The notes under the pieces are model-generated. The model worked only from the letters and a program-made list of their open reading frames with translations. It was not told the origin of the DNA and made no database searches. From positions 1-64,000 of the forward strand of contig DATJAL010000049.1 in assembly GCA_035516255.1 (NCBI GenBank): 64,000 bases of DNA, read 5' to 3'. The stretch is from Chitinivibrionales bacterium. Lineage in GTDB: Bacteria > Fibrobacterota > Chitinivibrionia > Chitinivibrionales > FEN-1185. This document shows, piece after piece, positions 18,262-60,188 of the stretch. The stretch's first letter is position 1. Each line of letters opens with the position of its first letter. Made by a program: the position numbers and the translations under genes.

Positions 18262-18290
18262 TTTTTACCTCGCCGTGGCAAATCTATTCC

Positions 18291-18713: not shown

Positions 18714-18743
18714 ACTTCCTCCTGTTGATTGTTAGTGAAAACT

Positions 18744-21893: not shown

Positions 21894-21909
21894 ATGAATT
21901 CCTTCGATT

Positions 21910-40810: not shown

Positions 40811-40837
40811 GCAGGATAATCGGTTTTAAGGTTGTTT

Positions 40838-40867
40838 TTGACAAAACGGCACTAAAACACCTATATT
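40838..40867 (+). promoter_or_regulatory. Strong sigma-70 promoter of the MNT/HepT pair
   Basis: TTGACA at 40838-40843, 18-base spacer, TATATT at 40862-40867; the start codon of the antitoxin is at 40915. The pair is close to consensus and has its own transcript, separate from the flavoprotein gene. Confidence 0.75.
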
Positions 40868-40914
40868 TTCGAACTGAAACCTGGCACTCGAAACATCCAA
40901 GAGAGTCGTTTTGC

Positions 40915-41202
40915 ATGACAAAAGAAGATATTTTACGAAGGCTTCGTGAAAAAAAACCCCAGCTTATGAGGAAATATCCTCTTCACAGGCTATCTCTGTT
41001 CGGTTCATGGGCACGGGGTGATCAATCGGAAATGAGCGACGTTGACATCCTGGCGGACGTGGATCCATCTATTGGGCTTGGTTTCGTTTCACTCGCCGAT
41101 GACCTTGAGAAACTTCTCGGAATGAAAGTTGACCTTGTCACCCCTCGAGCTTTAAAACCAGCGCTTAGAAAAGAAATTACAAAGGATCTGGTAGATGCCT
41201 AA
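40915..41202 (+). CDS. mntA: MNT-type nucleotidyltransferase antitoxin
   Basis: 95 residues from ATG 40915. A minimal nucleotidyltransferase with the motif 'LSLFGSWARGDQSEMSDVDILADV' (GS-x9-DxD). In MntA/HepT systems this enzyme AMPylates a tyrosine of the HepT toxin and so keeps it inactive. It overlaps the hepT gene by 8 bases. Confidence 0.9.
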   Translation: MTKEDILRRLREKKPQLMRKYPLHRLSLFGSWARGDQSEMSDVDILADVDPSIGLGFVSLADDLEKLLGMKVDLVTPRALKPALRKEITKDLVDA

Positions 41203-41524
41203 ACGCGAAGCACGTCTCCTCCTTGATGATATGATCGCGGCAATTGAAAAAATTAACCGGTATATTGCTGGATTAAAAATGGGGGAATTTCTAAAGGACG
41301 AAAAGACCTGCGATGCCGTCACCCGCAATCTTGAAATAATCGGAGAGGCCGCGCGCCAATGTCCCGAAGCGTTTAAAACCAAACATTCCGAAATCCCTTG
41401 GGCACAAATTACCGGGTTGCGCCATAGGATCGTTCACGATTACACCGGTGTCGATTTGGAATTGGTATGGCAGATCATCAATTCAGACATGAAGGAATTA
41501 TTAAACAACCTGCGCAGTTTATAA
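41195..41524 (+). CDS. hepT: HepT-type RNase toxin
   Basis: 109 residues, all helical. The HEPN ribonuclease motif R-x4-H appears as 'GLRHRIVHDY', with the tyrosine after His that is the AMPylation site in known MntA/HepT pairs. 'NLEIIGEAARQCPEAF' is the family signature. Overlaps the antitoxin gene by 8 bases and converges with the GIY-YIG-like gene, with a 6-base 3' overlap (41519-41524). Confidence 0.9.
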   Translation: MPKREARLLLDDMIAAIEKINRYIAGLKMGEFLKDEKTCDAVTRNLEIIGEAARQCPEAFKTKHSEIPWAQITGLRHRIVHDYTGVDLELVWQIINSDMKELLNNLRSL

Positions 41525-41884
41525 CCCTGTCCGCGAAATACGGTTGTACCCTTTCTCTCCAAACGGCTTCAGCTTGTCAAGCCACAGTTCCTCCAGCGTC
41601 TTCAAATCATCGTCGTAGTTGTAAAGCGGGTCCTCCTTCGGCTCCAGCCGGTCGATGATTTCGTATTTGAACGCGCCTTCACCGCATTTCACGAAATCCG
41701 ATTGGAGGTCGGGATTGGGAAAAGAACCTGTTTTCAACTGGAACATGATGCTGTTGAATTTGGTATTGAGGGTCTTGGATTTTCCGACAAGGATCTTTCC
41801 GTTCGCGGTGTTTGTCACCTGAAAAATTCCCATGGGCAAAAGGGTCTGCTTGTAATTGCGAATGAGCTCTTTTTTGTCAGTCAT
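41519..41884 (-). CDS. GIY-YIG-like nuclease-family protein, divergent
   Basis: 121 residues. The start 'MGIFQVTNTANGKILVGKSKTLN' is like the GIY-YIG core with GIF...ILVG in place of GIY...YIG, and 'SDFVKCGEGAFKYEIIDRL' and 'LEELWLDKLKPFGEKGYN' match the small bacterial family that keeps the fold. The Tyr pair needed for cleavage is replaced, so catalysis is doubtful. The gene is last in the minus-strand lipid operon (11 bases after fabD) although its role is probably unrelated. Confidence 0.75.
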   Translation of the reverse strand: MTDKKELIRNYKQTLLPMGIFQVTNTANGKILVGKSKTLNTKFNSIMFQLKTGSFPNPDLQSDFVKCGEGAFKYEIIDRLEPKEDPLYNYDDDLKTLEELWLDKLKPFGEKGYNRISRTGL

Positions 41885-41894
41885 TGTGTGAAAA

Positions 41895-42836
41895 TTATCT
41901 GCCGGGGACCAGTTCCCTGGCCGCCCGCTCCAGTCCGGTGAGATTGTTGATGTTGAAAACGGTCGTGCGCTTGGGAAACCCGTTCACCCGCACCAGGCCC
42001 GAAAGCACCCGCTGCGGCCCGATTTCCAGAAACACGTCCGCGTTTTTCGCAAGGAGCGTTTGCATGCTTGCGCGCCATAAAACGGGCCTCGTCAATTGCA
42101 GTGTGACAAGTTCCTTAATTTTTACCGGATCGCTTTCAAAAGCGCCCGTGCCGTTGAGCAGAAGCGGCACTGAAGGCGGTTTGAAGGTTATGGATTTCAC
42201 CCAGTCGGCGAACCGCTCCATTGCTTCTCGCATGTAGGGACTGTGCCACGGCCCTGAAACAAGCACTGTCTTGGTCTTGCCGACGCCGAGCTCCGAAAGC
42301 CGCCTCGAAAACGCCTGCATGGTCTCCAGGTCTCCCGACACCACGATCTGGTCCGGCGCATTGTCGTTTGCGAGAACGATTTTATCGGGAGCGTTCATGT
42401 CCGCGAGCAATTGCTCGACCGTTTCAAGCGGCGTGAACAGCACCGCCATCATGCCGCCGTTTGCGCGAGCCGCCGCCTCATCCATGAATCCGCCGCGCAT
42501 GGCCGCGATGGTCACGGCTTCCTGGTCCGAGACCACGCCGCTCGCGGCGAGCGAGGTGATTTCGCCGAGCGAATGGCCGAGCACCGCGTCGGGCGTTATG
42601 CCTTTTTCGCGCACATGACGCAGATAGCCGAGCGACACCGCCGCGAGCAGGGGCTGCAGAAACTGGGCCTTGCGCAGTTTTTTCTCGGGCCCGCGCAGGC
42701 AAAGTTTTTCAAGGTCCTCGTGGGTCAGGTCGCGTGCCAGCGAAACCAACGAGCGAAAACGGGCGTCCGCTTTGAAAAGGTCCTGCCCCATCCCGATTTC
42801 CTGCGAGCCCTGGCCGGGAAAAAGAAATACGATCAT
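41895..42836 (-). CDS. fabD: Malonyl-CoA:ACP transacylase
   Basis: 313 residues. 'MIVFLFPGQGSQEIGMG' and the nucleophile Ser89 in 'VLGHSLGEITSLAASG' and His in 'VSGPWHSPYMREAM' are as in FabD. It loads malonyl onto the ACP. It is the penultimate gene of the operon, 7 bases after fabG. Whether it serves the dedicated operon or general fatty acid synthesis cannot be said; no other FabD is in the window. Confidence 0.93.
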   Translation of the reverse strand: MIVFLFPGQGSQEIGMGQDLFKADARFRSLVSLARDLTHEDLEKLCLRGPEKKLRKAQFLQPLLAAVSLGYLRHVREKGITPDAVLGHSLGEITSLAASGVVSDQEAVTIAAMRGGFMDEAAARANGGMMAVLFTPLETVEQLLADMNAPDKIVLANDNAPDQIVVSGDLETMQAFSRRLSELGVGKTKTVLVSGPWHSPYMREAMERFADWVKSITFKPPSVPLLLNGTGAFESDPVKIKELVTLQLTRPVLWRASMQTLLAKNADVFLEIGPQRVLSGLVRVNGFPKRTTVFNINNLTGLERAARELVPGR

Positions 42837-42843
42837 ACTGCCC

Positions 42844-43578
42844 TTATGCTACCGTCGCGGTAAGGCCGCCGTCAACCACAAGCGACTGCCCGGTGATGTA
42901 GGAGGATTCGTCCGAGGAGAGGAATGCGACCGCGGCCGCGACCTCGGCGGGCGTGCCGAAGCGCTTGACCAGGATGCGGCCGAGGTTCTGCTGCTTGATC
43001 TGCCGCGGCATCTTCGCGGTCATGTCGGTTTCGATGAAGCCGGGCACCACGGCGTTCACGCGGATGCCGCGCGGGCCGAGCTCGGCCGCAAGCGACCGGG
43101 TGAAGGCCAGGAGCGCGCCCTTGCTCGCGCTGTAATTGGTCTGCCCGCCGATGCCCACCATGCCCGACACCGACGCGATGTTGACGATAACGCCCTTCTG
43201 CGCGTTCATCATGGGCCGCACTGCGGCCTTTACAAAACGCCACGCGCCGTTGAGGTTCGTGTCGAGCACCTTGTTCCATTCGTCAAACGGCATCATCATG
43301 AGGTACTGGTCCGACGTGATGCCCGCGTTGTTGACCAGGATGTCGATGCGGCCGTCGGCCTTGACGATGCCTTCGACGGCATTCCCGATCGCATCGCCGT
43401 CGGCCTGGGGACACAGGATCTTCTGCGCGCCGGTCTTCCGCGCCGTGTCCTGCGCGGCCTCCTCGTGGCGGTGATAGGTGAAATACACCTTCGCGTTCCG
43501 TTTGCGGAATTCCTCGACAACGGCCCTGCCGATGCCGCGGGACCCGCCGGTGACGAGGGCGATTTTATCGGAGAACAT
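42844..43578 (-). CDS. fabG: 3-oxoacyl-ACP reductase (FabG-type SDR)
   Basis: 244 residues from ATG 43578, with AAAGG 6 bases upstream. A short-chain dehydrogenase: '[19 protein letters not shown]' nucleotide-binding loop, '[15 protein letters not shown]', catalytic Ser/Tyr/Lys in '[24 protein letters not shown]', and FabG-like C-terminal '[12 protein letters not shown]'. It reduces the beta-keto group of the growing chain. Between DUF5946 gene and fabD. Confidence 0.92.
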
Positions 43579-43661
43579 GAGCGCCTTTATTGCTAAATGA
43601 TCATGATTGCGGACGGGGTATAAAATAGTTTTTGCAACCGGCAAAGGGCGGAACCGCGCAT

Positions 43662-44171
43662 TTATCCATTTAAAACAGTTTCAACCAATCTGTCAATTGT
43701 CGCATGATAGTTCACCCATGCATGATACACGCTTTCGGCCCAATCCTCCACCAGCTTTTTATGCTCTTCGAACGTGGCCGCCTTCACCACACCAACAACG
43801 GTTATTGCTCCCCTGTTTTCCGGCGGATCAAGCCACTCAAACGTTCCCTTGTTTTTCCTTATGAGCGCGTCCATCAACCGGGTCACCCTTTTGTACTCCA
43901 TTTTTTTCACGAGCACCATGTGCAGCGCCGCGAGATGGACGTTCACCGACTGCGTGGTCTGCGGCGTCTGGTCGCCCGGATGCTGTACGGCATAGGCATC
44001 CAACGTGAGGCGATGAAAGGACGGGTATTTGTAAATTGAAAATTCCTTTTCCAATATTTCGCCGTAGAGTTTCCAGCAGCCTGCCGAGGATGAATGGGGA
44101 TACCGGAAGGTCGGGCCATCAATGTCGGGCACGAGGGCGCGGCAGCCGATGCAATGAATCAAGGGTTGCAT
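43662..44171 (-). CDS. DUF5946 family protein
   Basis: 169 residues. The opening '[34 protein letters not shown]' and '[35 protein letters not shown]' are those of the DUF5946 family (CxGC zinc-like pair and 'DAYAVQHPG'). These proteins have no known activity. It lies 12 bases after the acyltransferase-like gene in the operon. Confidence 0.8.
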
Positions 44172-44183
44172 TTTTTATGTTAA

Positions 44184-44738
44184 CTATTGCAGGTTTGGCA
44201 GCTTCGCCAGATCCATCTCAAGCAAATACACCTTCTCGTTTTTATATGACAAATCGCCGATCACGTTCAATCCTATCATCTGATACGGCCGCACCCGCCT
44301 TTCCGAGCACGTGCCGTAGACTTTTCTGACGTTTCTGGCGACCAGTTTTTCCAGAAAATATTTCGTGAACAGTTTCAGCATGGGCGTGCCGCCCATGGGA
44401 TCGAGCAGGGAGAACATCTGGATTATTTCAGCGACAGCCTTGTTTGATTTGTCAACCGCAAAACCCTCCATTTCCAGTTGCAAAGGGTTCTTATGGTCGA
44501 AATTCACCGCGCACCCTGCCACGATCCGCTCGCCCAGCCGCGCCACATATAGTTCCTGGGTTTCGTAAGGAATCTTCGTGACGATCCTTTTTGACTTGTG
44601 ATCGAAGTCCCAAAGGTGGTCCAGGTTTTTCATATGACCGAATGCCCGGTAGAACGCCCGCTCGTAGGAACGGAGCTCGGCTTCGTTCGTTTTGTCAACC
44701 ATTGAAAAAACAAAATTGCCTGTTTTCTCCAAACTCAT
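44184..44738 (-). CDS. Acyltransferase-like protein of unknown family
   Basis: 184 residues without membrane segments. The strand-turn 'ELYVARLGERIVAGCAVNFDHKNPLQLEMEGFAVDKSNKAV' followed by a helical part with 'LVARNVRKVYGTCSERRVRPYQMIGLNVIGD' resembles the GNAT / N-acyl-transferase fold, in which a strand pair precedes a pantetheine loop and a substrate loop, but the classical Q/RxxGxG/A loop is not clear. The gene follows the GcvT-like gene after 170 bases and precedes DUF5946 gene. It may transfer the finished acyl chain. The start ATG is very close to GAGG, so a downstream start cannot be excluded. Confidence 0.4.
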   Translation of the reverse strand: MSLEKTGNFVFSMVDKTNEAELRSYERAFYRAFGHMKNLDHLWDFDHKSKRIVTKIPYETQELYVARLGERIVAGCAVNFDHKNPLQLEMEGFAVDKSNKAVAEIIQMFSLLDPMGGTPMLKLFTKYFLEKLVARNVRKVYGTCSERRVRPYQMIGLNVIGDLSYKNEKVYLLEMDLAKLPNLQ

Positions 44739-44908
44739 CCTCGCAATTTATTAAATGAGAAAGCGTGATGACATGCCTGAAATTCTTTGCAAGCGCAGCG
44801 GCTGGATAAAATATGATTTTTGCGTAATTATTTCAGAAGGGACATGATGACCAAATCCCTTTCCGCTTTGTCATCAGCACTAGCAGTTAAAACCGATCTG
44901 GTTTTTGT

Positions 44909-46018
44909 CTACAGCTCGTCAAGCTTCACCGAAAGGCTCTTGGGCATGATGGGCGGCATTGAAATGGTTTTTATCACGGGGCCTTTTTCAGACCCGAGGC
45001 TGAACTGAAGGCCCGCATAGGCGATGTCAACGGGAAACAGCGCCAGGCCCACATGGGCGTTTAAAACATGGGAAAAACAAGACGCCGTTACTTCAGCCAC
45101 CTTTGCGGCCCCGTTGAAAATGGGCGTCCCCTTTTTAAGTTCCTTTGCGCCGTGTTCGGTGCAGATGCCGATGATCTTGTTCTTGGTGCCGGCCTCCCTG
45201 CGCTTGCAGATCGCGTCGCGGCCGCTCCACTTTTCCTTGCTGAAATCGATCATCCACTGCAGGCCGAGCGCAAGCGGATCGCGCACCGCCGCGCCTTCGG
45301 CGAACACGTTGAAGAACCGGCCTTCGAGCCGCAGATCGTTGTGAATGTTAGCGCCGCAAAGGCCGCCGTTGTTTTTTATTGCAGCGGCGAGGCACGCCTC
45401 AAACAGTTTTACCGCGGAAGTTTTCGGCACCATGAGGTAATAGCCGAACTCCGAGGTTTTTCCCGCCCTGAAAAGCGAAACGCTTTCGCCCTCGAAGTCG
45501 TAACGCTCCACCGAAAGATACGGAAGCCCCAGCACGTCGGCGCCGAACAGCTCCTTGACCACGGCCCAGGCCTTGTAACCGTCTATGCTGAGCAGGCCGT
45601 GCGTGGCGCGGCAATCGGTGATGCCCGCGCCGGCCGCGCCGTGCTCCTGAAGCATCGCGTCGAAAGCGGCGTCGTCGATGATGCTTTCTGCCAGCAGGAT
45701 GAATTCCTCGTCGTTGTTGGCGACATAACAGTCGGCAACGATGTTGCCGGCGTTGTCGGCAATGAAGGTGTGGAGCATGCGGCCGAACCGCACCTTGGCA
45801 ACGTTGCCGGCGCACAGCGTGTCGAGAAAGTCAAGTCCCTTGTCCTCGGGAAAACGGAAGCGCTGCATATACGAGATATCGCCGATCCCCACCGCGTCGC
45901 GGACGAGCCGATATTCGGTCTTCGGGTCGGAAACCTTTGAAACTATTTCCGCGCCGAAGCGCTCGGAAAAAGCGGCCTTGTGTTTTGCGAAGCCGTCGTG
46001 AAAAAGGGATGCCCTCAT
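44909..46018 (-). CDS. GcvT/aminomethyltransferase-like protein in lipid operon
   Basis: 369 residues. It matches the GcvT/YgfZ/dimethylglycine-oxidase fold: 'YRLVRDAVGIGDISYMQRFRFPEDKGLDFLDTLCAGNVAKVRFGRMLHTFIADNAGNIVADCYV' is the N-terminal folate-binding region ('GDISYM...R..G.D'), and 'FGYYLMVPKTSAVKLFEACL' and the C-terminal beta-barrel 'ICTEHGAKELKKGTPIFNG' fit. These proteins bind tetrahydrofolate and take a one-carbon unit. No gcvH, gcvP or gcvL is nearby, so a role in glycine cleavage is unlikely; the operon position suggests a modification of the acyl product. Its start overlaps the ACP stop by 4 bases (ATGA). Confidence 0.8.
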   Translation of the reverse strand: MRASLFHDGFAKHKAAFSERFGAEIVSKVSDPKTEYRLVRDAVGIGDISYMQRFRFPEDKGLDFLDTLCAGNVAKVRFGRMLHTFIADNAGNIVADCYVANNDEEFILLAESIIDDAAFDAMLQEHGAAGAGITDCRATHGLLSIDGYKAWAVVKELFGADVLGLPYLSVERYDFEGESVSLFRAGKTSEFGYYLMVPKTSAVKLFEACLAAAIKNNGGLCGANIHNDLRLEGRFFNVFAEGAAVRDPLALGLQWMIDFSKEKWSGRDAICKRREAGTKNKIIGICTEHGAKELKKGTPIFNGAAKVAEVTASCFSHVLNAHVGLALFPVDIAYAGLQFSLGSEKGPVIKTISMPPIMPKSLSVKLDEL

Positions 46019-46311
46019 GATTGCGCCCCTTTGGCCGCCTGCCGTTCGAGCACGTAATCAACCACGGTGTTGATGGAGCGCAAAACAGAAATGTTCTGGT
46101 CCGGTATTTTTATGCCGAAGGAATTTTCAATGCATAGCACGATTTCCAGCGCGTCGAGCGAATCGAGGCCCAGGCCCGCGCCGAGCAGCGCCACGTCCTC
46201 GTGAAGGTCTTCGGGCGCATAGGGCAGGTTGAGGCGGCGGATGAGTTCTTTTTTAAAGGTATCTATCACAGCGCGGCGTTTATCAATCGCCGCCTGCATC
46301 GTCGTGGTCAT
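46015..46311 (-). CDS. Acyl carrier protein
   Basis: 98 residues. The 4'-phosphopantetheine attachment site is the Ser of 'GLGLDSLDALEIVLCIEN', in an otherwise standard four-helix ACP, about 18 residues longer at the N-terminus than FabF-type ACPs. It lies 12 bases after the second ketosynthase pair and overlaps the GcvT-like gene. It is the carrier for the dedicated synthase. Confidence 0.93.
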   Translation of the reverse strand: MTTTMQAAIDKRRAVIDTFKKELIRRLNLPYAPEDLHEDVALLGAGLGLDSLDALEIVLCIENSFGIKIPDQNISVLRSINTVVDYVLERQAAKGAQS

Positions 46312-46323
46312 ACGCGGTTTCTT

Positions 46324-48648
46324 TCACCCGTTTTTTTGTATCACGGCGGCGCAATTCACCCCGTGCGATGAGCTGAAAACTACGAGAATATACTTGTTGT
46401 CATGCCCATTTCTCAAGGGCGAACCCAAAAGAGCGTGGGCGAGCGAAAACAGCGGGGCCGACGCTTCAGCGAACCCCAGCGCGGGTGAAACATCGATGAT
46501 GCTATCGAACTTTTTTCCAACAACTTTCCCGACAGCCGCCGTTTCCCGTGGATTGGCGGCATTGCAGCAAACCGCGCCGATGCCCGAGGCGGCGAGCCCT
46601 GCTTTGTCAAGGGCGCTTTTTATTGTGTCATCAAGCCGCGCGGTGTCAGCGTCGGGCTTCATGCAATCGCCCGTCTCGGTCGAATACTCCACCGAACACA
46701 GCTTTCCCAATATTTTTGCGCCCCGGCCCTGTGCGTGCGAGGCTGTCTCGAGCATGATTGCGCAGGCGCCCTCGCCCCATGACAAAGCGCCGGACGACAG
46801 AAGGCCTGCCATGCGCAAATCGGTGACGATCCTTTCCGAAAGTTCGTCGACCGACAGGCTCACCAGCGCCTTTGCGTGGCCGCACCGTAACGCGGCCATT
46901 GAAAAACCGAGCCCCATGAGCCCTGCGCCCGGGCCGAAACTGATGGTGGTGTTGTGCCCCGTGAGACGGAGCGCCTTGCAGATGTTTCCGGCAACCGAAT
47001 TCGGGACGATATAGGGAAACGCCGCCACCTGGTCGATGCGGAATTTTTTCTTGAGCAGCGAGGTGATGTGCTCGGATTCGGCCCACGAAGGCCCTGCCGA
47101 AAGATGGAGAAACAGGCCCACCCCGCCGCGTCCGGCAAGCTTGTCGGGACTGCCGGCATGTTTCAGCGCCAGGCGCGCCGCCGCGGTGGCATACAGGCTG
47201 GACTTGTCCATGTTCCGCACATCTATGCGTTTGTCAACCGAGGCCATGGCAAAGGCAGGGACCATGCCGAGCCGCACCTGCGGCGCGCCCGAATACGCAT
47301 CGGCGCCGAGCGCGTTTTTTTTTGAAGCCGCAGCCTCAATGAGCGGCGCATGGCCCAGTCCGGCTGCGGAAACGATACCGATGCCGGTGATCACCACCGG
47401 CTCGTCCGAACCATTTTCCGGAGGAGAATATGCCGGATCAAAACGCGGATTCACCACGATGCTGGCATTGTTGCCGCCGAAGGCAAAGTTATTCTTCAAC
47501 ATCGGCCCGCTGCGCCCGACACGGCGGCCCGCCTCCGGGACATAATCGAGCGTGCAGCCGTCCCTTCGCTGCGAAAAATTCGCCGTGGACGGGTAATACC
47601 CTTTGGCAAGGGCCATGATGCCGGCAGCGGCCTCGAGCGAGCCCGCTGCGCCGAGGCAGTGTCCGATGATTGACTTGGTAGAGCTCACCGGAATGGCCGC
47701 AGCGCGCTCGCCGAACACCTTGCGGATCGCCTTGGTCTCGGCCTTGTCGTTTGCCTCGGTGCCGGTGCCGTGCGCATTGATGTAGGCTATTGACGAAGGA
47801 GAAATACCCGCGTCGTTGAGCGCGCGCTCCATGGAAAGCGCCTGGCCCGCGCCCGAAGGATCAGGCGCGGTGCAGTGAAAGGCGTCGTTCGAAAGGCCGA
47901 ACCCCATCACTTCGCCCAACACCGCGGCCTTCCGTCCCTGGGCATGCGCCAGGTTTTCGAGCACGAAGAAACCGGCGCCCTCGCCCAGGTTGAGTCCCAC
48001 GGGTTTTGAAAACGGCGCGCAGGTGCCTTCGCAGGTGGCCTTGAGGCCGTCGAACCCCGCGAGCGTGGTCTCGCTGAACGTGTCGCTGCCGCCCGCGAGC
48101 GCCGCGTCGATGATGCCGAGCCGTATGAGGTCGGCGGCGAAACCGATCGCGGCGGTACTCGCCGAGCAGGCCGTGACCACGGTCGCGCTCGGCCCGGCAA
48201 TGCCGAAAACATGGGCCAGCGACTTTGCGCCGCAGTAGTACCGGAGGCTGAAAAGTTCCTCTTTGGAAAGCGAGAGATCGCCCGAGAGGATGCGGCCATA
48301 ATGCCGCTCGATGCTCTGCATGGGACCGCTGCAGGTGGCGAACACAAGACCCATTCTCCGCGAAAGCGCGGACGGCGCAATGCCTGCCCGTGAAAGCGCT
48401 TCCTTTGCGGCGGCCGCGGCAAAATGCACGAACCGGTCAAGCCGATGCACGCACGGGTCGTCAACAAGCCCGCGGATATCGAATTCCCGGATGATGCCCG
48501 CGTGGCTTGCCCTGAAATGTGAGAGATGGGGCCTTCCGATGGCCGAAAACGACGGCGTCCCCGCCAGTACCGCCTCTGCAAAAGCATTGCAGTCGGCGCC
48601 GGCGCTGCACACGGCGCCCATTCCGGTGATGACGACGCGCTGCCTCAC
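46324..48648 (-). CDS. Fused ketosynthase - cysteine-less ketosynthase (KS-CLF type)
   Basis: 774 residues from a GTG at 48648 that overlaps the previous stop (GTGA). Residues 1-402 are a complete FabF-type ketosynthase: nucleophile Cys161 in 'VVTACSASTAAIG', His293 in 'NAHGTGTEAND' and His330 in 'STKSIIGHCLG', and 'FGGNNASI' at the end. Residues about 417-774 have the same fold but no Cys: 'TISFGPGAGLMGLGF' stands where the TACSS loop should be, and the HGTGT block is replaced by 'CCNAANPRE'. This is the arrangement of a chain-length factor (KS-beta) in type II PKS, here fused in one chain. It probably acts with the ACP encoded 12 bases on. Confidence 0.9.
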   Translation of the reverse strand: MRQRVVITGMGAVCSAGADCNAFAEAVLAGTPSFSAIGRPHLSHFRASHAGIIREFDIRGLVDDPCVHRLDRFVHFAAAAAKEALSRAGIAPSALSRRMGLVFATCSGPMQSIERHYGRILSGDLSLSKEELFSLRYYCGAKSLAHVFGIAGPSATVVTACSASTAAIGFAADLIRLGIIDAALAGGSDTFSETTLAGFDGLKATCEGTCAPFSKPVGLNLGEGAGFFVLENLAHAQGRKAAVLGEVMGFGLSNDAFHCTAPDPSGAGQALSMERALNDAGISPSSIAYINAHGTGTEANDKAETKAIRKVFGERAAAIPVSSTKSIIGHCLGAAGSLEAAAGIMALAKGYYPSTANFSQRRDGCTLDYVPEAGRRVGRSGPMLKNNFAFGGNNASIVVNPRFDPAYSPPENGSDEPVVITGIGIVSAAGLGHAPLIEAAASKKNALGADAYSGAPQVRLGMVPAFAMASVDKRIDVRNMDKSSLYATAAARLALKHAGSPDKLAGRGGVGLFLHLSAGPSWAESEHITSLLKKKFRIDQVAAFPYIVPNSVAGNICKALRLTGHNTTISFGPGAGLMGLGFSMAALRCGHAKALVSLSVDELSERIVTDLRMAGLLSSGALSWGEGACAIMLETASHAQGRGAKILGKLCSVEYSTETGDCMKPDADTARLDDTIKSALDKAGLAASGIGAVCCNAANPRETAAVGKVVGKKFDSIIDVSPALGFAEASAPLFSLAHALLGSPLRNGHDNKYILVVFSSSHGVNCAAVIQKNG

Positions 48649-51600
48649 GATACAAAGCTTCCGGTTTTGAAAACGACGGTGAAATTATAACCGAGGTCGG
48701 TGCTTGCCAGCGCCAGCACGTGCTGTGGCACCTGCCCGAGTCTTCTGTTGTCAAGATCGGCGATCCCCGTTTTCTGGGGCCACAGCCCATCGCCGTTGCG
48801 CAGGCTTTCAAGCGAGGCCGCGGCCGTCACAAGAATGGACGCGGTCTCGATGTATCCCGTGTTGAAGCTCGTTGCCGCGAGCGGGACCGACGCGGCGTTG
48901 CGTCCGAGAACGTCGAGCACCTTTTTGTCTTGCGCGTTGCCCTGCGGCGCCCACACGGCGAGGCCGATGTCGTTCCAGGCAAGTCCGGCGCGCGAAAGCG
49001 CCGTTGCGCAGGCGTGTTCGAGCCCCGCCGGTTCCATGCTCTGGCCGGAAAATTCCTTCCCGTCAATGCTCATGCCGTACGCCAGCACCTCGGCCAGGAC
49101 CGTCGCGCCGCGCTCCCGTGCCGCATCAAGCGTTTCGAGCACGAGGGTGGCCGCGCCCTCCGCGATCACCTTACGCTTTGGTTCCGAAATGTCAAGGTGA
49201 TACGCCGACTCGGCCTCACCCTGTTTGAGGAAGCCGATGAGGTCGTAATTATAAAAGCTCTGGTAATACACCTCGTCGGCAGCGGAAGCGAACACCGCCT
49301 TTGCGCGCTTTTCCCGCAGGGCGTTGAATGCCCAAGCCACGCTCGCGAGCCCCGCGTGCGGCCCGGGCGCAAGCGTCATGTTGACTCCCTTGAGGCATAA
49401 TGCATTGGAGACCCAGCCAGCGGTGGAGTTTGCCGTGATGTTGGAAAAACAGGCGATGTCGGGCTGATAATTGTCCGATTTGAAAACGCTGTTCATGTGG
49501 TCTGATTCGGGCGGGCCGTTGCACACACCCATCACGATGCCCACGTCGGCCGCGTTTTTCTGGCCCACGCGCAGGCCCGCGTGGTCGAGCGCGAGCTTCG
49601 ACGCTGCGGTGGCATAGGAGCTCAACAGGTTCATTTGCGCAAAGTCAAGCCTGCGGTCAACGTCCTGCGCGGTAAACGGCGGCACGAGCCCTGCCAGTTT
49701 CGACGCCGATGTCGTGTGCCCGAGCCTGCCGGCAGGCCCGATGCCCACCGCGCCGCGCCGCAGCGCATCAAGCGTTCTTGTGATGCCGAGTCCCAGCGAG
49801 GTGACCGTGCCGAGGCCGGTGATTACCACGCGGGAAAGCTCGCGCCTGCGCGGCGGCAGGGGAAAGTCCCATTTGGCAACGCACACCGCCGCGTTGTTGC
49901 CGCCGAACGCGTAATTCGCGGAAAGAAAGGCATTGTATTCCTTGTCGCGCGCGTTGTTGGGAACATAGTCGAGCGCGCAGCCGGGCCGCGGCTCCGAGAA
50001 ATTGAGCGTGGGCGGAATGAATCCATTGTTCATGGCGAGCAGGTTGCAGGTGGCCTCCAGCATGCCGGTAGTGCCCATGCAATGGCCGAAAAATGACTTT
50101 GTTGACGTGACCGGAATCGCGGCCGTGCCGCAGAACTTGGCGATGCCCTTTGATTCGGCGCGGTCGTTCGCCTCGGTGCCGGTGCCGTGCGCGTTGATGC
50201 AGCCGATGTCGTCCCGCTTGACGCCCGCGTCATTGAGCGCGTTCACAAGCGTTTTATACACGCCGTCGCCCCGAGGGTCGGGCGAGGTAGGATGGTAGGC
50301 GTCGGAGGTCAACGCGTGGCCGGCGATTTTTCCGTAAATGCGGATGTGGCGCAACAGCGCCTGCTCCATGTCTTCGAGCACCCAGAACACCGAGGCCTCG
50401 CCTATGTTAAGGCCTGCCGGCAGGGAAAACGGCGCGGTGCGGCCGGTCGACACCGCCTTGAGGCCGTTGAACCCGCTCACGTTGGCGACGCAGAGCGTGT
50501 CCGATCCGCCCACGATCACCGTGGAATACAGCCCGAGATTGATAAGCGACGCGGCCAGACCCAGCGCGCCGGTCGTTGACGAACAGGCAGTGGTGACCAG
50601 CCAGGGCTCGCCGCCGGTGCCGAGCGCGCGCGACAGCGCCTTGCCGAACCCGTAATACTGCGCCTGAAGGTTCATCTTCTCGTCAAAAATCTTGTCGCCC
50701 TTTCCATGCAGCCATTTATACTCCTCCTCGGCGGACAGCAGGCCGCCGTTGCACGTGCCGAGTACGAGCGCGATGTCGCGCCGCGCGGCGCGCGGCAGGC
50801 ATTCGATCTTCGCGTCCGCCATGGCCGCGCGGCCCGCGGCGATGCCGAAATGCAGGTATTTGTCTCCGTATTCCCTAATTTCCTCTTCGTCAAGAACCTT
50901 GCCCGCATCGAACCCCTTTATCTCGCCGCCGAGGTCGGTGCGGAAATGGCGCGCGTCGAACAGGGTGATGGGCGCAAGCCCGTGCCTCCCCTCGCGCAGC
51001 GCCGCCGTGATGTCCGCGCAGCTGTTGCCGATGGGACTCAAGGCGCCGATGCCCGTGACCGCGGCCTGGCCCCTCACGCCCCGGCGCTCGAGCGGCTTGC
51101 CCACGGCGCGTCGGCCGTTTTTCCATGTGGCCGGCTCAAGGCTTGCGGCATGAGAATCCTTCTGGAGCCGGTAGAAGTTGTTCCACAGGCCGATGAATTC
51201 CCTGTACAGCTCGTCGCGCGTCATGTTGAGCGGCTCGAACACCACGTGCGCGCCGTTGTAATGCGACCAGTTTTTGTCAACGATGCGGTTCTGGCGCTCG
51301 AGGCGATCCCAGTGCACCGAGCCGGGATACGGGGTGAATAGGAAAAATTCAGACGTGTGGATGCCGGCCTTGTCGAACAGCTCCACCACACGGTCGCCGA
51401 TGCCCTTCTCGTCCCAGTCGCGTCCAACGGCGCACGACCCGAAAAACCTGATGTCGTGGTCGCTGAGCTTCTTGACAAGATCAAACAGCATCCGCCGTTC
51501 CCTGGCCCCGCCGGCAAGCGCGCGGATCGAGATCGGGTCAACGTTGAGCGTGCAGTAGAAATTCTTGACGCCCGCGGCCGCCATGAGGGAAAGGAGTTTT

Positions 51601-52391
51601 TCGTCGGTGTTGAGCGCCATGGTGGAGGAGACGAAATATTTCTTCCCCAGCGGGATGAGCGCGTTGAGCAGACTCTGCGCGTATTCGGTCATTTTGCGCT
51701 GGGTGAAGAAAAGCGTGTCGTCGGCGAGATACACGTTCTCGTATTTGAGCCCGCGGATCTCCTCCACCACCTTGTCAATGGGCCTGAACCGAATCCTGCC
51801 GCCCATGTGCGCGGGTATGGCGCACATCGCGCAGTTGTACGTGCACCCGCGCGTGAGCTGCACAAGGTCCTCGTCCCAGTCGTAATAGTCTTTTTTGTAA
51901 AAAAGGTCGCGCCGCGTAATTTTCATGTCGGCCAGATTGAACGAGCAGCCGCCCTTGTAAATCCTTTTCAAGGCGCCGGCTTTGAGATCGTTCAGTATGA
52001 CGGGCCACGTGGGCTCGCCCTCGCCGGTGTTCACCGCATCGGCGTGCTTGAGGCATTCCTCCGCCATGAACGACGGGAAAAATCCTCCCATGATCACCTT
52101 AGCGCCCGCCGCCCTGAACCCGTCCCCTATTTCAAACGCGCGTTGCGCCTGCGGCGTGAAGCAGTTGATCGCGACAAGGTCGGTTTTCGCGGAAAAATCC
52201 ACCGGGTCGCCCGCGTTGTCGTCTATGAGCTCGACCTCGAATTCCGGCGGCGTCAATGACGCGAGGATGGGGATGCCCAGCGACGGCGGCGTGGTGAAAT
52301 CGCCGAGAAAATATTCGACCAGCCCCTTGTCCAATTCGGGGTTGTTGAGGAGGAACTTTTCGAAGCGGGGATAAATAAAGGTTATTTTCAC
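48645..52391 (-). CDS. B12-binding radical SAM domain fused to ketosynthase and cysteine-less ketosynthase
   Basis: 1248 residues from GTG 52391 (AAGG 10 bases upstream; a TTG ten codons earlier has no site). Residues 1-130 resemble the cobalamin-binding Rossmann fold ('PPSLGIPILASLTPP', 'VAINCFTPQAQRAFEIGDGFRAAGAKVIMGGFFPSFM', 'VNTGEGEPTWP') but without a clear DxHxxG. Residues about 180-400 are a radical SAM barrel with Cys183/187/190 in 'TRGCTYNCAMC'. A linker (400-440) leads to a full ketosynthase: Cys603 in 'VTTACSSTTGALG', His735 in 'INAHGTGTEAND', His770 in 'STKSFFGHCMG'. Residues about 854-1248 are a second ketosynthase fold with 'MTLAPGPHAGLAS' instead of the Cys loop. First gene of the operon. 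An assembly of this order is not known to me. Confidence 0.85.
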   Translation of the reverse strand: MKITFIYPRFEKFLLNNPELDKGLVEYFLGDFTTPPSLGIPILASLTPPEFEVELIDDNAGDPVDFSAKTDLVAINCFTPQAQRAFEIGDGFRAAGAKVIMGGFFPSFMAEECLKHADAVNTGEGEPTWPVILNDLKAGALKRIYKGGCSFNLADMKITRRDLFYKKDYYDWDEDLVQLTRGCTYNCAMCAIPAHMGGRIRFRPIDKVVEEIRGLKYENVYLADDTLFFTQRKMTEYAQSLLNALIPLGKKYFVSSTMALNTDEKLLSLMAAAGVKNFYCTLNVDPISIRALAGGARERRMLFDLVKKLSDHDIRFFGSCAVGRDWDEKGIGDRVVELFDKAGIHTSEFFLFTPYPGSVHWDRLERQNRIVDKNWSHYNGAHVVFEPLNMTRDELYREFIGLWNNFYRLQKDSHAASLEPATWKNGRRAVGKPLERRGVRGQAAVTGIGALSPIGNSCADITAALREGRHGLAPITLFDARHFRTDLGGEIKGFDAGKVLDEEEIREYGDKYLHFGIAAGRAAMADAKIECLPRAARRDIALVLGTCNGGLLSAEEEYKWLHGKGDKIFDEKMNLQAQYYGFGKALSRALGTGGEPWLVTTACSSTTGALGLAASLINLGLYSTVIVGGSDTLCVANVSGFNGLKAVSTGRTAPFSLPAGLNIGEASVFWVLEDMEQALLRHIRIYGKIAGHALTSDAYHPTSPDPRGDGVYKTLVNALNDAGVKRDDIGCINAHGTGTEANDRAESKGIAKFCGTAAIPVTSTKSFFGHCMGTTGMLEATCNLLAMNNGFIPPTLNFSEPRPGCALDYVPNNARDKEYNAFLSANYAFGGNNAAVCVAKWDFPLPPRRRELSRVVITGLGTVTSLGLGITRTLDALRRGAVGIGPAGRLGHTTSASKLAGLVPPFTAQDVDRRLDFAQMNLLSSYATAASKLALDHAGLRVGQKNAADVGIVMGVCNGPPESDHMNSVFKSDNYQPDIACFSNITANSTAGWVSNALCLKGVNMTLAPGPHAGLASVAWAFNALREKRAKAVFASAADEVYYQSFYNYDLIGFLKQGEAESAYHLDISEPKRKVIAEGAATLVLETLDAARERGATVLAEVLAYGMSIDGKEFSGQSMEPAGLEHACATALSRAGLAWNDIGLAVWAPQGNAQDKKVLDVLGRNAASVPLAATSFNTGYIETASILVTAAASLESLRNGDGLWPQKTGIADLDNRRLGQVPQHVLALASTDLGYNFTVVFKTGSFVS

Positions 52392-52540
52392 GTTTTTTCG
52401 GCCTTGGAAAATGCGGCGCAATGGTTATTACTGAGCGGTGATAAAAATAACCCATTGCGAGGGGAATTTTAAAGCATTTCCGAAGGTATTAAGACGTCAT
52501 TTAAAAACAGCGAGATCTGGATTCGCATGTTTTCGCGCCA

Positions 52541-52650
52541 GGCCGGACTGGAGTGGTGAGCCGGAGCGAATTGCCGGCCGACCCCGCCGGACAAGCGTCG
52601 GGGCGGTCCGAGGGCCGCCGCCGTCTTCGGCGGGGCGCCCAGGTCTTCTC
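52541..52650. repeat. Partial copy of the GGCGTT-type element (central part)
   Basis: GGCCGGACTGGAGTGGTGAGCCGG...GAATTGCCGGCCGACCC matches the middle of the element at 28374-28556 almost base for base (that copy: GGCCGGACTGGAGCGGTGAGCC). The remaining GCCGCCGCCGTCTTCGGCGGGGC is hairpin-like but specific to this copy. It lies between the synthase operon and the AnmK gene. Confidence 0.7.
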
Positions 52651-52662
52651 TTTTTGTAAACT

Positions 52663-53820
52663 TCACGGAAACACCCATCTTCCAATCCCCCTTATTTCCG
52701 GATTGGGGCGGACGTTCCACGGGCCGCGGTGCCCCGAAATATATTCGTGCACCGAAAGGCCGAGCGCAAGCGGGATGCGGAGCGCGGCGGGAATGCCGGA
52801 TTCCTCGACGCTTTTCACCTTGACCGGATCAAAATAGGTACCCAGATATTCGATAAGCGTCAGGTTGTTGGCGCCGCCGCCCGAAAGCCAAACGACTTCA
52901 GCGGGAATCACCTGCCGGTACTCGCGCTTGAAGAATTCAAACGCGGACCGCGCCGTGAGCGCGGTGAGCGTCGCGAGCCGGTCGAGCGGTGAAAGGGCCG
53001 CAACCTGTGGAAGGGAATATAGCGCCGCAAGTTCCTGCAGAAACGCCTGCTTCGGCGCGGGGCGGGAAAACCATTCGTGCGCCATGAGCGCGCCCAGGCA
53101 CGCGCTGTCCACCTTGCCCTTTGCCGCGAACGAGCCGTCGCGGTCGAACCCGTCCTGGCAGCCGGCCTCGCGCGCGGCCAGGTTGATGAGGCAGGTGCCG
53201 GGCCCGATGTCGCTGTCGAGCACGATGGCCATTGCCTGGTTGTCAACCACGGCCATGTGCGCGACGAGCCCGATGTTGAGGTAAAGGGAAACAGGCTCGG
53301 CGTGCTTGGCGATTTTCGCGTTGCCCGGAAACAGCGGCAGCCCGCCGTCGGCGCCGGCCAGGATGCCGTGCCTGCCGAACCCGGTGATGACCGGGACCTT
53401 CAGGGCAGAGGCAAGCAGCTGCGCGTCGCCGAGCGTGACGTCCCAGACGCGCGCCTGGTCCCCGTCGCCCGCCGGCCCCCTGAAGAGCGTGCAGGGGTTC
53501 ATCACGACGAAGTGCGGCTGGCGCATTGACTTATGCGCATGCGACAGCGCGGTCCGGGCGCATTCGAGGAACAGGTACGACAGCCGCTGGTCGAGCCACG
53601 CAAGCCGGTCGAGCCCTATTGCGGCCGCGGGATTGAGCGCAAGCGTTTCCACGAGCTGTTCAACGGGGTCAGGATACGGAAGAATCGCATGGGCAACGGA
53701 CTCCCACGCGTCCCCCTCGGCGCAGAAATAGATGCACTGGATCCCGCTCTGCGGCCCGCCCGCGGAAACGACGAGAATGCGCCTTTTTTTTGTTTTTTTT
53801 AAAGCGGAAAAAAAATTCAT
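52663..53820 (-). CDS. AnmK-family anhydro-N-acetylmuramic acid kinase-like protein
   Basis: 385 residues. The core 'DSDIGPGTCLINLAAREAG' followed by 'DGFDRDGSFAAKGKVDSACL', and 'VVWLSGGGANNLTLIEYLG' match the UPF0075/AnmK family of sugar kinases with an actin-like fold, where a similar D.GPGN..ID motif and 'SGGGANN' bind nucleotide. The N-terminus 'RRILVVSAGGPQSGIQCIYF' corresponds to the usual 'GTSxDGID'-type start but lacks the 'MSGTSLDG' wording, so the substrate may differ. It would phosphorylate anhydroMurNAc in cell-wall recycling. It is the gene upstream of the synthase operon on the same strand but 270 bases away. Confidence 0.78.
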   Translation of the reverse strand: MNFFSALKKTKKRRILVVSAGGPQSGIQCIYFCAEGDAWESVAHAILPYPDPVEQLVETLALNPAAAIGLDRLAWLDQRLSYLFLECARTALSHAHKSMRQPHFVVMNPCTLFRGPAGDGDQARVWDVTLGDAQLLASALKVPVITGFGRHGILAGADGGLPLFPGNAKIAKHAEPVSLYLNIGLVAHMAVVDNQAMAIVLDSDIGPGTCLINLAAREAGCQDGFDRDGSFAAKGKVDSACLGALMAHEWFSRPAPKQAFLQELAALYSLPQVAALSPLDRLATLTALTARSAFEFFKREYRQVIPAEVVWLSGGGANNLTLIEYLGTYFDPVKVKSVEESGIPAALRIPLALGLSVHEYISGHRGPWNVRPNPEIRGIGRWVFP

Positions 53821-57668: not shown

Positions 57669-60188
57669 ATGTCTTCCTACGCCTCCTGGTACGAAACAAC
57701 CTACCCCTTCCTCACCGGCCACGGCCTCTGGCTTCGGGGCGGCGAACTTAACACGCTTTCCGTATCGGAATATGACAAAAGACCGTTCAAGATTCTCATC
57801 ACCCGGCTTTCCACCTACTTCGACACCGCGGAATCGTTTTCACACAAGGTGTTGTACCAGATCGCGCGAAGGCAGGGCTTGTTTCCTGACTTCGCCTTTC
57901 TCCCTCCTGTCAATGATGCGCCCGTCTTTTTGCGCGACGATGTGCCGTGGCTCATGGGGATTGGCACAAAACGCGGGCCGCGCGATTTTGACCTAATCGC
58001 CTTTTCAAACTCAATCGTGCAGGAACTGGTGAACGTGCCACTCATGCTCGAAAACAGCGGCATTCCGCCTGCCAAGAGCGCCCGGCTCACAGATCCTTCC
58101 GTTCCGCTGGTCATTCTCGGCGGATCAAACGCTTTACACACTTCGGTGTTTTTCACGCCCGAGCCTCCGGTTGACGGTATCTTTTTCGGCGAATCAACGG
58201 AATGCATTGCCGATATTTTTAAGACCTGTGCCGACGGGAAGAAAAAAGGACTTTCCAAGTCGGAAACACTGGAGCGACTCGAGAAAATCCCAGGATTCAT
58301 CCAGCCGGACAAGCCGAAAAAAACAAAACGGCATATTCAAACGGCGACGGATCTCAACAGCCTGCTCATTGACGCGCCGGTCTTCAATCTTGAAGGGCAG
58401 TACGGCACGGGAAACCTGCAGATCTCGGAAGGCTGCCCGTGCTTTTGCAGTTTCTGCAGCGAAAGTTATGTGCGCAAACCGTATCGCGAAGTACCGGCGG
58501 ACGATATCATCAAAGACGCCGGCCGGATGAAGGCCGGCATGGGACTTGACAAAGTCGAACTGTACAGCTTCAACTTCAACATGCACTCGGGCTTCGGCCG
58601 TATCCTGGGCGGCCTGGCCGATATTTTTCCCGCGATCGGCCTTAAGAGCCAGCGGTTCGACATGCTTGCGGCGCAGCCCGGCATGCTCCCGCTTCTGCAC
58701 GCGGCGGGAAAGACAAGCCTCACCTGCGGGCTGGAGGGCATATCGCCGCGCCTCCGGCGCTATCTGCACAAAAGCCTTTCGGAGGCCGACCTCGAAAAGA
58801 GCCTCGTTTCCATTCTTTCTTCGAAAATGCGCGAGCTTAAGATTTTTCTTCTGATCACCGGAAAGGAAGAAAAACAGGACTTTACTGATTTTGAAGCGTT
58901 GTTGCGCTTTATCAAGGAACACGCGGCCAAGGCCGCGCATGCCCCGCGCATCATTTTCTCGGCAACGCCGCTCGTGCGGTTCCCGTGGACGCCGCTTGAA
59001 TTCGAGGACGCGACCGGCCCTGACGCCCTTAAACCGGTGATCGCAGCCGTGCGCACGGCCGTTGAGAAGCACGGATTTGAATTCAGGATGTCAAGCGATG
59101 TCTGCGACTATCATTTGTCCCAAATACTTGCGCGCGTTTCTGATCCGGGGACGTATGATGCTTTACTTTCCGCAATCCGCGACACCGGCTATGTCTATTA
59201 CCGTTCCGTGCCCGCGTCATTCGTCAAATCATTTATTGACCGATGCGGCGCGCTTGGGATCCGGCCTGAATCGCTGACCGCCGGAAGTTCGCGCGGCGAC
59301 GACGATAAACCCTGGCTGACCTTTGAAACCGGCGTCGACCGGGCATTTCTTGTCAAACAGCACGGAGCCGCGCTGACGTTTGTTGATAAAGGATATTGCC
59401 TGGGGACGGTTGGATATGATGGAAAATGCCTGGCTTGCGGAGTGTGCGATGATAAAAGCCGCACGCTCATGACCGCTCAATGTCATAAAAGCACGCTTCA
59501 GGCATCAGTGCTATCCGAAAAAATGAAACTCTGGCAATCATCCAAAAAGGAAATCTCGTTTCTCGTTCATCTGAACGACCGCTGCCGCGGGCTGCCGCGC
59601 CAGAGCGCGGGCGCGGCGCTGGCACGCACCCTCATGATTACCGAACCGGATTTGGCCGGGTGTTACGCTGGGTTTGGCGGCTCCTTCTGGTCAAAAGGGA
59701 ATTCTTCCTGTTGGATAACCGGGGATGACATTATCACGCTTTTGTGGATTGGACGGGGCGTCGAACTCCTAGAAAATGGGTTGCCTCATCCGGCGCGTCT
59801 TTCACGAATAAACAAGGTGCTGGGAGATTGGGGGACGATCAAGAACATTGTTGATGAAAAACCATCCTCATGGTCGCTCTCCATCCGTTCACCCTTCCCT
59901 TTTGAGCCAAAAGTATGGTTTGCGGAAAAAGGACTTCCCTATATGTTACGGAAAACTGGGGACGGTGCGTATGTATTTGATTTCAGCGAAAAAGCTTTAA
60001 AGAAGAAGATTGTGAAATCGCTTGATCATAAAATGCTCATGGATGGAATGACAGAGCTTCGGATGACGGTGTTTGACAAATTCGATCCTGAGGAATTTAT
60101 CAAGGAAACATTTGGGTCCAAGAACGAAAACGATTGGGTGAGAATAAGAGTGGAATCGAAGGCTGGCAAAAAGAAATTAGATAGTTGA
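57669..60188 (+). CDS. Large radical SAM protein with B12-like N-terminus and extra CxxC motif
   Basis: 839 residues. Residues about 40-215 are a Rossmann-like part ('FKILITRLSTYFD', 'DFDLIAFSNSIVQEL', 'VPLVILGGSNALHTS', 'VDGIFFGESTECI'), of the kind that binds cobalamin in many radical SAM proteins, but no DxHxxG. The radical SAM Cys are in 'SEGCPCFCSFCSES' (CxxxCxxC, about 257-264). The barrel continues with 'FDMLAAQPGMLPLLHAAGKTSLTCGLEGISPRLRRYL'. Beyond it a long C-terminal part contains 'GKCLACGVCDD' (CxxC), which could bind a second cluster or zinc, then a 'NDRCRGLPRQSAGAALAR' region like the TIGR03936 domain found after such enzymes. No ribosome binding site is seen before the ATG. Substrate unknown. 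Confidence 0.75.
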   Translation: MSSYASWYETTYPFLTGHGLWLRGGELNTLSVSEYDKRPFKILITRLSTYFDTAESFSHKVLYQIARRQGLFPDFAFLPPVNDAPVFLRDDVPWLMGIGTKRGPRDFDLIAFSNSIVQELVNVPLMLENSGIPPAKSARLTDPSVPLVILGGSNALHTSVFFTPEPPVDGIFFGESTECIADIFKTCADGKKKGLSKSETLERLEKIPGFIQPDKPKKTKRHIQTATDLNSLLIDAPVFNLEGQYGTGNLQISEGCPCFCSFCSESYVRKPYREVPADDIIKDAGRMKAGMGLDKVELYSFNFNMHSGFGRILGGLADIFPAIGLKSQRFDMLAAQPGMLPLLHAAGKTSLTCGLEGISPRLRRYLHKSLSEADLEKSLVSILSSKMRELKIFLLITGKEEKQDFTDFEALLRFIKEHAAKAAHAPRIIFSATPLVRFPWTPLEFEDATGPDALKPVIAAVRTAVEKHGFEFRMSSDVCDYHLSQILARVSDPGTYDALLSAIRDTGYVYYRSVPASFVKSFIDRCGALGIRPESLTAGSSRGDDDKPWLTFETGVDRAFLVKQHGAALTFVDKGYCLGTVGYDGKCLACGVCDDKSRTLMTAQCHKSTLQASVLSEKMKLWQSSKKEISFLVHLNDRCRGLPRQSAGAALARTLMITEPDLAGCYAGFGGSFWSKGNSSCWITGDDIITLLWIGRGVELLENGLPHPARLSRINKVLGDWGTIKNIVDEKPSSWSLSIRSPFPFEPKVWFAEKGLPYMLRKTGDGAYVFDFSEKALKKKIVKSLDHKMLMDGMTELRMTVFDKFDPEEFIKETFGSKNENDWVRIRVESKAGKKKLDS

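Follow-up and report, generated by a model that had tools for sequence, protein, structure and literature searches.

The DNA considered here, 'the window', is a stretch of 64,000 nucleotides from a Chitinivibrionales bacterium of the phylum Fibrobacterota (assembly GCA_035516255.1, contig DATJAL010000049.1, positions 1 to 64,000). Its minus strand carries one gene for a protein of 1248 amino acids (aa) in which a radical S-adenosylmethionine (rSAM) enzyme is joined to a FabF-like ketosynthase (KS), and this in turn to a degenerate KS fold of the kind termed 'chain length factor' (CLF). As judged from its sequence, the architecture of the fusion is rSAM–KS–CLF-like. The frame is free of stops from 48645 to 52421, and could begin at a TTG at 52421 (1258 codons); the GTG at 52391 is the better start, because conservation among relatives begins there. 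A preliminary description of this DNA had claimed a single frame of 1248 residues, and this we confirm: 48645–52391 is uninterrupted. The residues it named, C183, C187 and C190 of the rSAM barrel and C603, H735 and H770 of the KS, are correct, and are kept in all 18 aligned fusions. The gene and its parts are as follows.

48645–52391, minus strand: rSAM–KS–CLF fusion gene, 1248 aa from GTG (open frame and 17 aligned homologues)
51897–52391, minus strand: Rossmann-like domain of the B12-binding type, residues 1–165 (PF02310 below cut-off; GG..PSF motif conserved among the fusions)
51180–51896, minus strand: radical SAM barrel with C183, C187 and C190, residues 166–404 (PF04055; Foldseek)
51069–51179, minus strand: conserved interdomain linker, residues 405–441 (invariant residues, identity, low dN/dS)
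49857–51068, minus strand: FabF-like ketosynthase, KS1, with C603, H735, K765 and H770, residues 442–845 (PF00109/PF02801)
48648–49844, minus strand: degenerate KS fold, the CLF-like domain CLF1, residues 850–1248 (catalytic residues replaced; KS tree)

Conservation and distribution of the fusion

Draft assemblies in many contigs leave room for the suspicion that a chimeric assembly, a frameshift or an annotation artefact has fused two adjacent genes, and rSAM and KS do occur elsewhere as separate neighbouring genes (L060 and L082). The frame, however, is open across the linker at 18 of 18 loci (the window, 16 other genomes of the order, and G100). On this ground we reject an assembly chimera or frameshift, and hold the chance of an artefact to be negligible. 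The event that the preliminary description named as fatal to the fusion, a frameshift or contig join at 51100–51250 that splits the parts in other genomes, was seen at none of the 18. The linker is conserved in sequence as well: residues 411–440 of the window protein are 50–87% identical to those of the 17 other fusions, and E419, P420, T422, G426, G431, L434 and G438 are invariant in a five-row alignment. Its dN/dS is 0.13 between the window and G001, and 0.03 between G019 and G032 (a pair whose dS is almost saturated), values like those of the domains; two further pairs yielded no dS. In the tblastn output, G019 and G032 are marked '1 TAA', yet their open reading frames (ORFs) run to 1253 aa without a stop. 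Two other candidate fusions were discarded. For a second one in the window's own genome ('open frame 1410' of C44) the DNA shows separate rSAM, KS and CLF genes, and an 880-aa frame in G018 (L060) proved to be separate genes likewise.

The fusion is present in 17 of the 40 genomes of the order, the window's own included, and the other copies are 54–79% identical to the window protein. Relatives that carry it are named as a Fibrobacteres bacterium, a Chitinivibrionales bacterium and a Chitinispirillaceae bacterium. The G039 copy is cut by a contig end; those of the 15 other genomes besides the window's are complete. Our multi-genome searches scored 4–16 candidates per genome. Among the 16 or fewer scored per genome of the order there was no split version of the fusion clade, and among the 4 or fewer scored per genome there was no fusion in the 127 other genomes of the phylum (of 167). 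A wider scan of contigs used short exact peptide patterns, which detect close relatives only and limit statements beyond the phylum to these. An extra copy, 63% identical, lies in a metagenome-assembled genome (MAG) named as Verrucomicrobiales (L040/L152). By tetranucleotide composition its contig correlates at r 0.91–0.95 with four other stretches of its own bin, and at only 0.51–0.83 with seven Fibrobacterota stretches; 57 other sampled genomes of that MAG's order have no fusion at E 1e-60. Because the composition matches the bin and those 57 genomes are fusion-free, horizontal transfer looks likelier than misbinning.

The ketosynthase and CLF-like domains

KS1 matches the N- and C-terminal ketoacyl-synthase families, PF00109 and PF02801. 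It scores 410 bits with NF005589, over the cut-off of 387, and 430.9 bits with TIGR03150 (fabF), under the cut-off of 493.75. The Cys–His–His set and the Lys of a working KS—C603, H735, H770 and K765—are kept in 18 of 18 KS1 domains. We compared these with CLF1 in an alignment of 18 KS and 17 CLF domains (G039, which lacks the C-terminal end, was left out). Opposite C603, CLF1 has Pro (10) or His (7); opposite H735, Ala (17 of 17); opposite K765, Ser, Thr or Val (17 rows); and opposite H770, Tyr (15) or Phe (2). With neither the Cys nor the Lys nor either His of the active site left, residues 850–1248 are CLF-like, and not a second working KS. An invariant His, H1012, stands one residue past the Cys position of CLF1 (18 of 18). 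The 'ketosynthase pair' of the preliminary description was not borne out, then: there is one catalytic KS (442–845) and one non-catalytic KS fold (850–1248).

The trees in this study were quick ones, with SH-aLRT support only. For the KS tree, 11 of the 18 fusions were sampled together with eight second KS–CLF proteins (KS2–CLF2), which in the window are encoded beside the fusion. KS1 and KS2 emerge as sisters (SH-aLRT 91), as do CLF1 and CLF2 (87), which suggests that a KS–CLF pair was duplicated and that one copy acquired the rSAM half. We infer that KS1 is paired with CLF1.

The radical SAM half

The rSAM half belongs to the radical SAM superfamily: it scores 42.1 bits with PF04055 (cut-off 29.5), and the triad C183-x3-C187-x2-C190 (CxxxCxxC) is present in 18 of 18 fusions. 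In a Foldseek search with a model of this half, the seven best rows were AprD4, MgmA, TsrM and OxsB, AprD4 at the top, all of the B12-type rSAM architecture. These rows are weak (13–16% identity, TM-scores of 0.39 or less), and the query, a low-confidence AlphaFold model (pLDDT 60), yields the fold class only. In a profile search, MgmA and AprD4 were the two best solved chains. AprD4 itself is not known to contain cobalamin. The preliminary description's picture of a direct fusion, and of a B12-type radical SAM architecture, is supported.

The motif DxHxxG is absent from the first 210 residues in 18 of 18 fusions. So much of the preliminary description stands; what it drew from the absence—that cobalamin may bind base-off without His, or not at all—is weak, because BchE, TokK and TsrM, according to the part of the source available to us, hold cobalamin base-off (PMC13142503), and the missing motif is uninformative on the point. 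The rSAM half may use cobalamin. The ladderane-type rSAM family TIGR04072 was rejected as a home for this half: its score is 49.1 bits against an equivalog cut-off of 360.

The operon

Downstream of the fusion lie the following minus-strand genes, with one plus-strand gene close by.

46324–48648, minus strand: second KS–CLF protein (KS2–CLF2), 774 aa, with a 4-base overlap with the fusion stop
46015–46311, minus strand: acyl carrier protein (ACP), 98 aa, with a GLDSL site (PF00550, 34.7 bits)
44909–46018, minus strand: GcvT-like folate-binding protein, 369 aa (PF01571, 109 bits)
43662–44738, minus strand: two genes between those of the GcvT-like protein and FabG, for a DUF5946 protein and for a 184-aa protein that matches no family
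42844–43644, minus strand: FabG-like ketoreductase, which probably begins downstream of the TTG (homologues in relatives' operons)
41895–42836, minus strand: FabD-like malonyl-ACP transacylase (PF00698; TIGR00128 234 bits, cut-off of 260.9 not reached)
39617–40810, plus strand: protein of FMN-reductase/flavodoxin fold plus SCP2, with a CxxC...C motif (family scan)

Genes overlap by 4 bases at two joints, fusion/second KS–CLF and ACP/GcvT-like. KS, CLF, ACP and malonyltransferase, the minimal set of a type II polyketide synthase (PKS), are encoded together in the window. The second KS–CLF gene is directly next to the fusion at 9 of 18 loci; it is absent, with the ACP gene next instead, at 5, and its adjacency could not be judged at 4 (G009, G031, G039 and G100). 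An ACP homologue is listed as adjoining the fusion at 9 other loci. The GcvT-like protein goes with the fusion from genome to genome: of the 16 other fusion genomes, 14 have a homologue of 43–71% identity, which makes 15 of 17 once the window's own is counted; none was found in G007 and G039. In 12 of the 15 it shares the fusion's contig. None of the 150 other genomes of the phylum has one at this identity, the next best being 32% (G089). The 11 aligned copies from fusion operons keep RxGKTxEFGY and an Asp that aligns with the DD pair of the GcvT folate site. The window copy matches PF01571, as listed, and scores 115 bits with TIGR00528 (glycine cleavage T-protein), below the cut-off of 235.85. 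Our ORF maps keep the longest of overlapping ORFs, and some genes (e.g. the GcvT-like gene of G001) are hidden in them.

Other members vary. The operons of G001, G019 and G032 include a 4HBT thioesterase; the window has instead the 184-aa and DUF5946 proteins, for which no match is listed in other fusion loci. A homologue of the flavodoxin-fold/SCP2 protein, a possible redox or lipid-carrier partner, lies near the fusion at 7 of 18 loci, the window's own included. Elsewhere in the window are an LpxC–FabZ fusion (61187–62569, minus strand), which could supply the dehydratase not found in the operon (see below); an 839-aa radical SAM protein (57669–60188, plus strand) with Radical_SAM_N2 and weak similarity to TIGR03960; and, at 15976–23406 (minus strand), a P-type ATPase, an RND pump and a membrane fusion protein, with HMBD (heavy-metal-binding) domains in two of the three.

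Free-standing relatives and known systems

In the rSAM tree, which includes all 18 fusions, the rSAM halves of the fusions group in a single clade (SH-aLRT 100), sister to a group of two enzymes, rSAMa and rSAMb (92). These are free-standing proteins of the same order, 36–43% identical to the window protein among the matches listed. They are encoded close to KS and CLF, joined in several genomes by genes for FabG, FabZ and ACP and by MMPL-like and crtI-like genes. At the level of sequence, the tree shows that the fusion rSAM shares ancestry with the rSAM enzymes of this second KS/CLF cluster. Like the fusion, rSAMa and rSAMb keep company with KS and CLF; unlike it, they are not fused to the KS, and rSAMb is joined in some genomes to a crtI-like desaturase.

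The window's own genome contains a ladderane-like cluster near a contig end (C44; L042:10334-19036), with rSAMa, KS, CLF, crtI-like and rSAMb genes. It contains, too, an rSAM gene that immediately precedes KS and CLF-like genes (C40; L086:8976-12618); this rSAM is distant from the fusion clade, and 28% identical to rSAMb. In G011, G009, G015 and G031, a crtI/phytoene-desaturase-like enzyme and rSAMb share one frame of 921–949 aa, and a partial example occurs in G006; that of G011 sits within a KS/CLF cluster. The coordinates of these crtI–rSAMb fusions are:

L068:9482-12280
L156:713-3493
L157:1123-3888
L158:5451-8300
L071:6099-8108 (partial)

The company of rSAMa and rSAMb resembles that seen in fatty-acid clusters known from anammox bacteria and from Desulfotalea. 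According to the part of the source available to us, the putative ladderane clusters of anammox bacteria and the syntenic cluster of Desulfotalea psychrophila contain rSAM, divergent fabF and phytoene-desaturase-like genes, and one of the rSAM enzymes has a B12-binding domain (PMC2649909). The same portion of that text mentions no rSAM–KS fusion, and the window rSAM falls outside TIGR04072. Type II PKS and aryl polyene clusters are like the window operon in having KS with a catalytically dead CLF, ACP, ketoreductase (KR) and malonyltransferase; they are unlike it in that here KS, CLF and rSAM form one chain, accompanied by a GcvT-like protein. AprD4, MgmA, TsrM and OxsB share the fold class of the rSAM half and act on other substrates. 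CoeI of the coelulatin pathway is an rSAM enzyme that modifies a type II polyketide, but it is HemN-like and encoded by a separate gene (PMC9714029, in the part available). The preliminary description knew of no such fusion, and rightly so as far as we can tell: this is a real, conserved fusion of known parts, of which we found no published description in the portions of the open-licence literature consulted.

Proposed function

The best explanation of these observations is that the fusion serves, in this Fibrobacterota-related order, as a core enzyme with two functions in a pathway like those of type II polyketides or fatty acids. KS1–CLF1 would act as a covalent KS–CLF pair and elongate a chain carried by the ACP; the FabD-like enzyme would supply malonyl units, and FabG would do the reducing. 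The rSAM half, an enzyme of the cobalamin type, would act on the same ACP-bound chain, most likely by hydrogen abstraction that yields a double bond or a C–C bond (oxidation or cyclisation); C-methylation would be the less likely outcome. By holding the radical domain beside KS–CLF, the covalent fusion would couple chain editing to elongation, and since related bacteria retain the joined form, editing of the chain during its assembly is probable. Action on an ACP-bound chain, already suggested in the preliminary description, is plausible in that an ACP is encoded in the same operon. We rank oxidation or cyclisation above methylation with moderate confidence; the GcvT-like protein may contribute a folate-dependent one-carbon step. 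For this explanation as a whole we put our confidence slightly above even.

The case for oxidation comes from the nearest rSAM-less KS–CLF proteins, those of G089 and G091 (one genus, family f10). Their operons contain a GcvT-like gene and a FabA-type dehydratase and, in G089, an ACP and a malonyltransferase; the stretches of DNA read showed no rSAM homologue. Upstream of KS–CLF, each has a gene for a diiron-like protein that bears the motifs EExRH and DExRH; the two copies are 67% identical. The loci are:

L081:9215-14508 and L095:6936-12555, in G089 and G091: diiron-like protein, KS–CLF and GcvT-like genes

The G089 copy passes the cut-off of PF03405, the acyl-ACP-desaturase type (27.8 bits against 22.7), and at E 1e-10 these two genomes alone among the 167 carry such a protein. 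Because proteins of the acyl-ACP desaturase kind oxidise ACP-bound chains, those of G089 and G091 suggest oxidation here too, and are possibly the oxygen-dependent counterpart of the fusion rSAM half. AcsF and BchE provide a precedent of oxygen-dependent and oxygen-free enzymes that do comparable work. A haem–copper oxidase was not seen in 14 of the 17 fusion genomes, and G089 and G091 have one. All this would fit an oxygen-dependent diiron enzyme and an oxygen-free rSAM enzyme with similar tasks on a chain bound to ACP, which is not to say that it is proof.

A different outcome would be methylation: the rSAM half may be a cobalamin-dependent class B C-methylase that adds methyl branches, with the GcvT-like protein in one-carbon supply. 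Cobalamin rSAM enzymes are tied mostly to methylation (PMC13142503), and a HemN-type rSAM enzyme methylates the type II polyketide of coelulatin (PMC9714029; both as far as the parts available go). MgmA and TsrM, both methylases, are among the profile and fold matches beside AprD4 and OxsB; the hopanoid methylase HpnR is among the NCBIfam matches, at 45.7 bits (cut-off 650); and the GcvT-like protein is found together with the fusion. Against this, a methylase cut-off is reached by none of the 25 NCBIfam families listed (of 34), the protein at the head of the structural matches, AprD4, works as a diol dehydratase, and the diiron protein of G089 and G091 points to oxidation. On balance we think methylation somewhat unlikely.

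It is conceivable, too, that the fusion merely co-localises independent enzymes, and that the substrate of the rSAM is a late or a separate one, e.g. an aryl head group, rather than the chain at the KS. Aryl polyene clusters feature a starter supply (ammonia lyase/ligase), an LpxL-type acyltransferase, MMPL and a dehydratase. In G021, G028 and G029, the fusion adjoins genes for an aromatic ammonia lyase (70–72% identical to that of G028), MMPL, KS and KR. In G028 an aryl-polyene-type set is filled out by a GT2–LpxL gene, an acyltransferase, a FabA-like dehydratase and the terminal part of a gene resembling AMP ligases. A GT2–LpxL gene occurs in G020 as well, and the contig of G021 ends in an LpxL-type piece. 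An aromatic ammonia lyase in the window's own genome was rejected: the match is only 37% identical, lies on another contig and is perhaps HutH. The portions of open-licence papers seen held nothing on point for Fibrobacter aryl polyenes, or for GcvT with aryl polyenes. Beyond the aryl-polyene-type genes at these three fusions, free-standing rSAMa and rSAMb manage without fusion, and the rSAMb–crtI fusions of G009, G011, G015 and G031 indicate that an rSAM fusion in such clusters need not imply a KS substrate. Mere co-localisation nevertheless sits poorly with a linker conserved in sequence, beyond its length, and with the lack of a split form of the clade among the candidates scored, and seems to us rather unlikely.

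Several observations weigh against the function that we propose. PF02310 (B12-binding) is matched at 29.6 bits (E 6.7e-7), under its cut-off of 32.1. CobS was found in 11 of the 17 fusion genomes, and not in the other 6, the window's among them; a MetH activation domain is present in all 6, which may use imported cobalamin. Neither AlphaFold model is good enough to set the rSAM site close to the KS (the full-chain model, from a 5-sequence alignment of residues 1–1200 without ACP, has a pLDDT of 37), and the Pfam scan found no dehydratase among the operon's proteins. The aryl-polyene feature set appears among none of the ten window proteins scanned (39617–53820), and an aryl head group is, accordingly, not general. 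The diiron comparison involves two genomes of one genus. The G091 copy has no Pfam match at E 0.001, the best solved relative, a plastid acyl-ACP desaturase, is matched weakly (E 0.0012), and a conserved gene (48% identical) stands between the diiron and KS–CLF genes. Finally, the window genome, G001 and G011 have both the fusion and a haem–copper oxidase, and several of the fusion genomes without the oxidase are incomplete assemblies. The sub-threshold PF02310 match and the missing CobS of the window genome might even be taken as signs of a superfluous or degenerating rSAM half that is carried along. Its N-terminal part and barrel, however, are 64–87% and 61–81% identical between the window and its 17 relatives, against 53–81% for the KS and 43–73% for the CLF, and decay is very improbable.

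Implications

Radical SAM enzymes have been proposed for the assembly of ladderanes on ACP-bound chains, and the sources, in the parts available to us, leave the responsible enzymes unestablished (PMC2649909, PMC9821293). The boldest form of our proposal, distinctly doubtful and put forward as speculation, is that the fusion is a self-contained radical polyketide synthase, in which desaturation or cyclisation by the rSAM half accompanies elongation in the KS–CLF; as an oxygen-independent counterpart of acyl-ACP desaturases, it would make polyunsaturated, or ladder-like or cyclic, lipids in uncultured Fibrobacterota. A radical enzyme and a KS–CLF in one chain name the enzyme, its partner ACP and the likely substrate together, and so would make a question of this ladderane type testable in a single expression experiment.

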